Below the pieces are notes generated by a model, which saw only the letters and a list, made by a program, of their open reading frames with translations, was not told the DNA's origin and did not search any database. Positions 2,810 to 10,513 of a stretch of DNA of 37,245 bases are shown here, piece by piece. The stretch spans positions 75,136 to 112,380 of the forward strand of contig JACPHU010000029.1 in the NCBI GenBank assembly GCA_016188495.1, in the 5' to 3' direction. The position numbers and the translations under genes were made by a program. The stretch is from Candidatus Uhrbacteria bacterium (GTDB lineage: Bacteria > Patescibacteriota > Patescibacteriia > UBA9934 > GWF2-40-263). Numbering within the stretch: position 1 is the first letter of the stretch; each line of letters opens with the position of its first letter.

Positions 2810-3367
2810 TTAAGCTTTTCCTAGCGTTTCCTTTCCTTGTGTCCAATCAACGGGACAAAGTTCGCCTGTTTGGAGGGCTTTGAGCACGCGTAAGGTTTCA
2901 TCTACAGATCTTCCCACGCCTAGATCGTGATAGAGGGCGTAACGGAGGATTCCTTCGGGATCAATGATAAAGGTTCCTCGAAGAGCGATTCCTTGCTCAG
3001 GCAGTAATACACCATAGTCCCAGCTCATATCTCGGGTAATATCAGAGAAAAGGGGATACTGAAGTTCTCCTAATTCTTTGAGCCAAGCTCTATGAGAATG
3101 AATCGAATCTGTGGATCCTCCAAGCACTTGTGCATTGAGCGCTTTAAATTCTTCGAAACGTTTTGAGAATCCTGTGATTTCTGTAGGACAAACAAACGTG
3201 AAGTCGAGGGGGTAGAAAAAGAGCACGAGCCACTTCCCTTTATAATCTTCAAGTTTCGCTTGGGAAAATTCACCGCCTTTTATGACCGTTTCTACAGTAA
3301 AGTTTGGAGCAGGCTTGCTCACCTGTGCGACTTGAGGGGTGTGCAGTTCTTCAATAAAGTCTTCCAT
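2810..3367 (-). CDS. 2-Cys peroxiredoxin (AhpC/Prx1 type)
   Basis: FYPLDFTFVCPTEITGFSKRFEEF...STDSIHSHRAW...GVLLPEQGIALRGTFIIDPEGILR...GELCPVDW; peroxidatic VCP and resolving CP cysteines. Confidence 0.95.
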   Translation of the reverse strand: MEDFIEELHTPQVAQVSKPAPNFTVETVIKGGEFSQAKLEDYKGKWLVLFFYPLDFTFVCPTEITGFSKRFEEFKALNAQVLGGSTDSIHSHRAWLKELGELQYPLFSDITRDMSWDYGVLLPEQGIALRGTFIIDPEGILRYALYHDLGVGRSVDETLRVLKALQTGELCPVDWTQGKETLGKA

Positions 3368-3410: not shown

Positions 3411-3434
3411 GATGCGTTACTATGGTAACGCATC
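3411..3434. other. Perfect 10-bp-stem hairpin in divergent intergenic region
   Basis: GATGCGTTAC-TATG-GTAACGCATC. Confidence 0.6.
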
Positions 3435-3437
3435 ATA

Positions 3438-3567
3438 GAGACCTCTGCAAAACTCGCGATCTTACCTTTCACGGGCGCCCGTTGACCACACTCTCCCTAT
3501 GGGGAATAGGGTTCGTGCGGCTCAACAGCCCGTTCAAGGTAATCTCATCGAGTTTTTCAGAGGTCTC
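3438..3567. repeat. Structured element S, copy 1 (candidate ncRNA or MITE-like element)
   Basis: Outer stem GAGACCTCTGCAAAACTCG / CGAGTTTTTCAGAGGTCTC (one mismatch); inner conserved GCGATCTT, GGCGCCCGTTGACC, CCCTAT..ATAGGG, GGCTCAACAGCCCG, AATCTCATCGAG; shares all blocks with 10377-10502. Confidence 0.75.
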
Positions 3568-3587
3568 ACCATAGACTTTCGTCAATT

Positions 3588-4616
3588 ATGTTTCGATCTT
3601 CTTTATTCTGGTTCATTTCTTTATTGCTTGTGGGAACAGGCGTTGTTTTTTATTTTGAATATCGCTATTACCGAACGCCTCTTATGCAGAGTGGTTCGTC
3701 TGAGAATAATACGGTCTTATATAATGTTCCCGTTGAGACGGATGGTGTGCTTCACGCGATTGATCTTGATGAAATTATGACAGGTACGTTTGATGAGGAT
3801 GCCATTCCCGCTATTGACGCGCCTGTCTATGAATCCATCGCCTCCGCTGATGTCTATTTAAATAATGACGGTTACGGACTGGTTGTTGAGAATGATGATG
3901 CAGTTCGTTTTTATCCTTATCAGATTTTAGTTTGGCATCAGGTGGTGAATGATACCTTTGGAAAAACACGGCTTCTGGTTACCTATTGTCCGCTGTGTTT
4001 TGAGGGGGTTGTGTATCAGGCGCATCCAGACGCCTCCGAAGCCTTTTCTTTCGGTGTCTCAGGAAAAATTTGGAATAACAATACATTGTTATTTGATCGC
4101 TCTAGCCATTCTCTTTGGAGTCAATTGTTAGGGGAAGCTCTTGTGGGTCCTCGTACAGGAGCAAAACTCGACCGATATCCCTCTTATTCCACAACCTGGG
4201 CTTCCTTTAAAGAAGCGTATTCTTCTGCGGAAGTTCTTTCACGGGAAACCGGCTACATCCGTGATTACACCCAAGATCCTTATGAACGTGAAGGATACTA
4301 TTCGTCTTCGGCTATCTGGTATCCTCTTTCTCATGAAGATGGACGTTTGGAAGCAAAAGAACTTGTTTACGGATATCAATCAGGAGATTTTCAAAAAGCC
4401 TATTCGCAGGAATGGATAAAACAAGCTGGTTCTATTCAAGATATGATTGGATCAGAGTCTTTCAAACTGATTTGGGATGAGGATCTGCAAACAGCTCGTC
4501 TTTTTTCTCAACTATCGGGGGATTCTGAATTGGAAACGGAACATCCTTTGCAAAAAATGTTCTGGTTTTGCTGGGCAACGATGTATCCTGATACGGAAGT
4601 TTCTATTGAAAATTAA
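3588..4616 (+). CDS. DUF3179 domain-containing protein, N-terminal TM/signal anchor
   Basis: LLVTYCPLCFEGVVYQ...FGVSGKIWNNNTLLFDRSSHSLWSQLLGEALVGPRTGAKL is characteristic of DUF3179. Confidence 0.85.
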   Translation: MFRSSLFWFISLLLVGTGVVFYFEYRYYRTPLMQSGSSENNTVLYNVPVETDGVLHAIDLDEIMTGTFDEDAIPAIDAPVYESIASADVYLNNDGYGLVVENDDAVRFYPYQILVWHQVVNDTFGKTRLLVTYCPLCFEGVVYQAHPDASEAFSFGVSGKIWNNNTLLFDRSSHSLWSQLLGEALVGPRTGAKLDRYPSYSTTWASFKEAYSSAEVLSRETGYIRDYTQDPYEREGYYSSSAIWYPLSHEDGRLEAKELVYGYQSGDFQKAYSQEWIKQAGSIQDMIGSESFKLIWDEDLQTARLFSQLSGDSELETEHPLQKMFWFCWATMYPDTEVSIEN

Positions 4617-10161: not shown

Positions 10162-10380
10162 ATGGATGCAGCTACAATGGTAACCTTGACGAAAGGATTA
10201 ACAATGGCGCTTGGAGGTTTTGCTCCAGCACTTGCTATTGGACTTCTTGGATTCAAGGCCATGGAAGCCATCGGACGAAATCCAGAATCAGCAGGAAAGC
10301 TTTTCGTTCCAATGCTTCTTGGTATGGCGTTTGCGGAAGCAATTGCCATTTATTCACTCGTCGTCGTGTTCACACTGTGA
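10162..10380 (+). CDS. atpE: F0F1 ATP synthase subunit c
   Basis: Two-helix hairpin; [17 protein letters not shown] loop; [17 protein letters not shown] with ion-binding Glu. Confidence 0.96.
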
Positions 10381-10502
10381 ATGACCAAACCCGCGATCTT
10401 GACGTTTTCAGGCGCCCGTCGACCCCGTTCTCCCTACGATGAGTAGGGTTCTCGGGGCTCGACAGCCCGAAAACATCAATCTCATCGAGTTTTGTCATTC
10501 AC
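10377..10502. repeat. Structured element S, copy 2, overlapping the atpE stop
   Basis: Outer stem GTGAATGACCAAACCCG / CGAGTTTTGTCATTCAC; inner blocks GCGATCTT, GGCGCCCGTCGACC, CCCTAC..GTAGGG, GGCTCGACAGCCCG, AATCTCATCGAG shared with 3438-3567. Confidence 0.75.
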
Positions 10503-10513
10503 ATTAAGACGAG

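Follow-up and report, generated by a model that had tools for sequence, protein, structure and literature searches.

A palindromic, probably MITE-like element of Candidatus Uhrbacteria with the ends of two insertion sequence families around one core

The window, that is, the whole analysed stretch of 37,245 nucleotides from a Candidatus Uhrbacteria bacterium, carries a hairpin of about 130 bp at positions 3438-3567 (forward strand). It is placed between the 5' ends of the genes for an AhpC/TSA peroxiredoxin (2810-3367, reverse strand) and a DUF3179 protein (3588-4616, forward strand). An earlier note had described a 19-bp outer stem with one mismatch, a nested second stem, a CCCTAT-ATAGGG tip, and loop blocks; all of these are present and fold. 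The hairpin is the sole such inverted repeat within the window, and none was obtained across 20 Markov shuffles. Folded as RNA with its flanks, it reaches -69.1 kcal/mol (z -9.5). No ORF of at least 80 aa is found within the element.

From left to right on the forward strand, this copy (copy 1) consists of the left arm GAGACCTCTGCAAAACTCG (3438-3456), the first 18 bp of which equal the end of an IS5-family insertion sequence (IS) in the congener G002 (locus L074); the core motif CGATCTT on the 5' side of an internal loop (3457-3463), almost invariant in 39 copies; the 5' side of the inner stem with the block ACCTTTCACGGGC (3464-3476); the tip hairpin CCCTATGGGGAATAGGG, which is of tip type A (3495-3511); the 3' side of the inner stem, GCCCGTTCAAGGT (3528-3540); the conserved core motif AATCTCAT on the 3' side of the internal loop (3541-3548); and the right arm GAGACCTCTGAAAAACTCG (3549-3567), the reverse complement of the left arm with one mismatch. 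The arms are referred to as type 1. The copy is flanked by the target-site duplication (TSD) CATA, at 3434-3437 on the left and at 3570-3573, two bases past the arm, on the right (both forward strand).

A second copy (copy 2) with type 2 (IS982-like) arms is located between atpE and atpF. It had been reported at 10377-10502 and does exist there, but is slightly longer (10375-10504, forward strand), and its arms show three mismatches. The left arm CTGTGAATGACCAAACCCG (10375-10393) provides the end of atpE, namely its final Leu codon and its TGA stop codon (10378-10380); the right arm is at 10486-10504. The atpE genes of five relatives likewise end in FTL*. In the closest relative, G004, the atpE-atpF gap contains an independent copy of its own, in opposite orientation and with the 7-bp TSD CATTGAG, and the host has no copy at that insertion site. 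The corresponding gap is devoid of a copy in G002, G003, and G005. In G001 (L300), the atpE stop codon is adjoined by a sequence that is related to the element but strongly diverged; it has different arms and retains the CGATCT / ATCTCAT motif alone.

A DNA search of the 1.19-Mb host assembly returned 47 matches. The search of the genome and its relatives with a covariance model, which had been proposed in the earlier note, was carried out with a model built from 39 copies and revealed 74 distinct copies in the host; the family occupies approximately 0.8% of the host genome. The five congeners together have about 55 copies. Matches to the model occur in 32 of the 43 genomes of the host's family, where a genome other than that of the host has at most about 30 copies, and the named relatives that carry the element are Candidatus Uhrbacteria. 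Three contigs filed under Lentisphaerae bacterium GWF2_44_16 (L167, L157, and L095; MHBF01) also carry it. L167 has the tRNA-Arg site of the host together with both flanks, which makes it likely that an Uhrbacteria contig was misbinned. A pattern scan across contigs (19 fixed bases, 31 gap lengths) additionally gave single matches in unrelated phyla; these were discarded as their number is at chance level and most have no paired arms. An Rfam match had been named in the earlier note as a refuting result, and the scan was negative: no family was matched at gathering or relaxed thresholds, the best weak match being symR with 22 bits against a gathering score of 61. Literature searches did not bring up any description of such elements from Patescibacteria.

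From the outside inwards, the members of the family have a 19-bp arm that ends in ACTCG, followed by the conserved asymmetric internal loop CGATCTT / AATCTCAT. The inner stem is made up of alternative blocks (e.g., GCCTTTCACGGGC, GACGTTTTCAGGC, or GCGGCTTACGGGC) with their partners. Three tip types are distinguished: A (CCCTAY..RTAGGG), B (..GACGTACGTTTGGGTACGTC..), and C (GTCGCCGTA..). Arms, inner blocks, and tips reassort in many combinations. Two arm types surround one common core, and a third, rarer arm resembling GGGRCTGTCYC was also seen. In the two window copies, the fold of the minus strand is more stable than that of the plus strand, with margins of 10.6 and 15.7 kcal/mol under RNA parameters, and the order is the same under DNA parameters. 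Additional palindromes are nested in the element copies at L030, L034, L035, L038, L009, and L022; these palindromes (CCGCCCGAACGAACGTTCGACGGTCGGGCGGGC, CTCCGCCAGAGGCGGATCTGCCTTCGGCATGA, and the CTGAGTTTATCGAAGGG repeat) represent nested repeat families.

The flanks of host copies were compared with the closest relative G004. Copy 1 is missing there: the host has GCATCATA-element-ACCATAGACTTTCG, where G004 has the empty site GCATCATAGTCTTTCG, which identifies CATA as duplicated. At L027, the 7-bp duplication CTTGTGG cleanly brackets a type 2 copy, the site of which is likewise empty in G004, as are those of the copies at L019 (TCTT), at L015, and of others. Deletion footprints were also encountered in G004 (e.g., ATTAGAGATCTCATTAG), and at such sites (e.g., ATTA-GAGATCTC-ATTAG) both ends have been left behind in fused form. 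Copies have thus been gained and lost between sister species. An exact 4-bp TSD is present in 18 of 69 type 1 copies, compared with 0.9 expected by shuffling, and in 24 of 83 (vs. 1.7) when small register freedom is permitted; for type 2 copies, an exact 7-bp TSD is found in 7 of 15 (vs. 0.4, with small register freedom). A type 2 copy (TSD TGGAATTA) at L184 contains an inserted type 1 copy (TSD TAGG). TSDs are missing from many copies, the arms of which match no IS.

These data bear on the alternative that the element is a transcription terminator or a simple bidirectional hairpin without mobility. Its frequent position directly after stop codons would fit, but some copies lie within operons (atpE-atpF) and others separate tRNA genes from their upstream neighbours, no U-run follows the stem, and TSDs are present; as a complete explanation it is refuted by the empty sites, and we give it hardly any credence. 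Integron attC sites were considered as well, on account of the stop-codon adjacency and the strand preference of the hairpin, and were set aside in view of the TSDs, the IS-like arms, and the occurrence as dispersed single copies.

TSD length tracks the arm type, and so does the similarity to ISs, for which the DDE transposase loci of the host's family were inspected for inverted repeats. Type 1 arms (GAGACCTCTGCAAAACTC, 4-bp TSD) correspond to the end of an IS5-family IS and type 2 arms (CTGTGAATTACGAAACTC, 7-bp TSD) to the ends of IS982-like ISs; for both types, identity to IS ends of G002 extends over 18 of 18 bp. The type 1 match is the IS at L074 of G002, which ends in GAGACCTCTGCAAAACTCC and encodes an IS5-family transposase (NF033581, 185.5 bits vs. 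cut-off 140); this IS is cut by the contig end, leaving a single end and no TSD visible. ISs ending in CTGTGAATTACGAAA occur in G002 (L075) and in G029 (L090, with TSD CTAGTAAG), and one end of the IS at L075 equals the type 2 arms across the 18 bp. The transposase of the IS at L075 is IS982-like: NF033520 is the best match, although its 111.4 bits remain under the cut-off of 130, and PF13612 scores 92.9 against a cut-off of 27. Related ends, GAGACCACTGCAAAACTC, are found at L088 of G029. By the identities of both arm types, ends from two IS families are thus found on one and the same core.

The nearest matching ISs are those of a congener (G002) and a family member (G029), and no transposase or IS with matching ends was detected in the host assembly, which is 96% complete. 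A search for a parent IS by end motif in 11 genomes yielded merely more element copies and chance matches. The host has a sole gene of the DDE_Tnp_1/IS982 type (L254/L307, at the end of contig C8), and its ends, CGTGAACCCAAAAATTC, are unlike the type 2 arms. In G002 (L069, contig C57), an IS with ends TCACTAGTGTCCAA adjoins the left end of an element copy. A link between copy number and DDE_Tnp_1 was considered and rejected, as the copy-rich genomes G009, G018, and G027 carry no DDE_Tnp_1.

A different mode of transposition would be that of a single-stranded DNA hairpin moved by a Y1/HUH enzyme in the style of REP/RAYT or IS200/IS605; this would account for the strand polarity as well as for the left end being fixed. 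The host does have one RAYT-like Y1 gene (L077:988-1860, contig C6), the minus strand is the best-folding one also with DNA parameters, and the left end shows polarity, as detailed below. Y1 transposition leaves no TSD, however, whereas the 4- and 7-bp TSDs of the element are significantly above chance; the arms are ends of DDE ISs, and the element core is absent from the stretch around the RAYT-like gene. We consider this explanation very unlikely.

The outer and the second stem had been stated to differ between the two window copies while remaining paired, and this holds for the family. Over 39 copies, 95.6% of the pair cells are standard pairs, 219 cells are changed on both sides (shuffled mean: 50), and both-sided changes occur in 26 of 36 pairs. 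The covariation score is 0.456, as compared with 0.134 for shuffled and at most 0.10 for slid data. Ten orthologous sites with a copy in both the host and a relative offer 190 arm pairs for comparison, of which 35 are changed on both sides and still paired, 13 are changed otherwise, and 142 are unchanged. An example is the tRNA-Arg site at L167: the flanks are conserved on both sides, five compensated pairs separate the arms of the host from those of the relative, and the host copy has a tip of type B, that of the relative one of type C.

Strong covariation and compensatory change at orthologous sites are what would be expected of a functional structured RNA, a tRNA leader or 3'-UTR element the stem of which is kept by selection on pairing and which has spread secondarily by transposition. 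Conservation of the internal loop also favours this explanation, as does the far better folding of the minus strand, which would carry tandem G.A pairs. Against it stands the scarcity of one-sided G-U states: the G-U state is nearly absent from the outer pairs, changed pairs have almost always passed from Watson-Crick to Watson-Crick, and intermediates are few whichever strand is read. The outer stem is about 94-95% Watson-Crick in the copies of the host and its congeners, with mismatches of 16 G.T and 54 A.C, a difference for which a p-value is indicative only, the copies being related. A.C exceeds G.T in copies sense and antisense to their neighbours alike, so that the asymmetry is independent of transcription and follows the polarity of the element itself. 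Furthermore, copy 1 and many others are missing from the closest relative, and there is no Rfam match.

The position relative to genes adds to both sides. Within the genus, the left end is at most 8 nt from a stop codon for 35 of 60 left neighbours reading towards the element, while the same measure for the right end gives 7 of 51 (Fisher p 1.5e-6); single distances are approximate, since gene calls are simple longest-ORF calls. The bias towards stop codons recurs outside the genus with genus loci excluded (19/33 vs. 5/21, p 0.02). Of the tRNA neighbours in the genus that face the left end with their 5' end, 24 of 25 are at most 8 nt away, most of them 4 nt; no such placement was seen in the sample from outside the genus. 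Tip types B and C are linked to tRNAs (13/24 vs. 18/105, p 4e-4). The left-end bias is not predicted by the symmetric arms. The tRNA placement and the enrichment of tips B and C there would agree with a functional RNA, but no single strand is favoured, because copies adjoining ORFs are plus-sense and those adjoining tRNAs are minus-sense. All in all, we regard a functional RNA as the primary explanation as improbable. Of the two possibilities raised in the earlier note, a structured RNA or a hairpin mobile element, the second is borne out by copy number, TSDs, empty sites, and IS-end arms, and the first falls short of being demonstrated, as wobbles are rare, the mismatch asymmetry ignores transcription, and arm copying by template switching predicts the same signature (PMC8794818).

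We thus consider it probable that the element is MITE-like: a non-autonomous, palindromic, gene-free mobile element with arms of DDE IS type, which is moved in trans and in which pairing is kept mainly at the DNA level. The 19-bp outer arms would be, or descend from, the terminal inverted repeats of DDE ISs, and transposases of the IS5 and IS982 types may move the element in trans. Template switching is known to yield multibase compensatory stem changes without wobble intermediates (PMC8794818). If it acted at this hairpin, one arm would be copied onto the other, resulting in both-sided changes with few G.T/G-U intermediates. The covariation of the arms fits such DNA-level copying better than RNA selection, which stays a less likely alternative; it is more readily attributed to the palindromic, mobile nature of the element than taken to prove that the RNA is functional. 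Gene conversion among copies via the conserved core blocks could exchange whole inner stems and whole tips. With arm copying, moreover, the two ends would be able to shift together to the recognition sequence of a new transposase, a joint change that a normal MITE could not easily achieve.

The asymmetric internal loop beside the arms is kept in nearly all copies, although pure arm copying should sometimes erase it; some selection on structure is therefore likely, be it on account of mobility or of the host. As RNA, the hairpin may also be of use to the host at gene 3' ends and in tRNA leaders. A more far-reaching model, which we put forward tentatively and hold to be rather doubtful, is that the core itself is the replicating unit. 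It would switch from one transposase to another when hairpin copying rewrites its two ends jointly, its insertion or retention at stop codons and tRNA gene starts would have a fixed polarity, and at these places it might function as an RNA leader or 3' element of a bacterium with a reduced genome.

Covariation is usually the best evidence for a functional RNA, and here a mobile palindrome gives the same signature. With about 130 copies examined, orthologous sites, and rare wobbles, the family can be used to test pipelines for RNA discovery. In addition, it exemplifies one core bearing the ends of two IS families, and in its host, an ultra-small bacterium, it takes up about 0.8% of a small genome of the kind thought to shed excess DNA.

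Like MITEs in general, the element is short, multicopy, and gene-free, shares terminal inverted repeats with ISs (a single end having been seen for the type 1 IS), and shows TSDs and empty sites; type 1 copies have the 4-bp TSD and the IS5-family ends of IS5-family-derived MITEs. We class it with the bacterial repeats of the MITE/ERIC kind, as a new and unusual variant. ERIC (also IRU or RU-1) of enterobacteria is an imperfect palindrome of 127 bp, dispersed in intergenic and transcribed regions and treated as a MITE (PMC2229807). Size, imperfect palindrome, and dispersal are similar; the element differs by at least two IS end types on one core, TSDs of 4 and 7 bp, covarying arms, and a host from the Patescibacteria. 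It lacks the TA terminal motif of the ERIC type, with ends GAGA.. or CTGT.., and no sequence relation to ERIC was seen in this comparison of described features. YPAL (RU-2) of Yersinia is a palindromic mobile repeat of 168 bp with TSDs and empty sites, the TSDs varying from 3 to 26 bp and the inverted repeats being internal (PMC2229807), whereas the Uhrbacteria element has terminal arms and a TSD length that goes with the arm type. REPs are 20-40 bp long with GTAG or CGTC tags (PMC3733652); REP/REPIN sequences with RAYT are likewise high-copy extragenic hairpins, but the element, with its 130 bp, terminal IS-like arms, and TSDs, does not belong to them. Homogenised inverted-repeat arms have been described for stems maintained by template switching (PMC8604942). 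Such stems are known from RNA genes and yeast coding genes; here, the stem is that of a mobile palindrome. In pneumococcus, the ends of RUP match those of the IS thought to move it (PMC2229807), and BOX elements give stop codons at gene 3' ends (PMC3049150). The element resembles RUP in its IS-matching ends and BOX in supplying a stop codon at a gene 3' end. For both, we know of no report of an exchange of end types around a conserved core and of no placement at tRNA 5' ends, which are features of the Uhrbacteria element.
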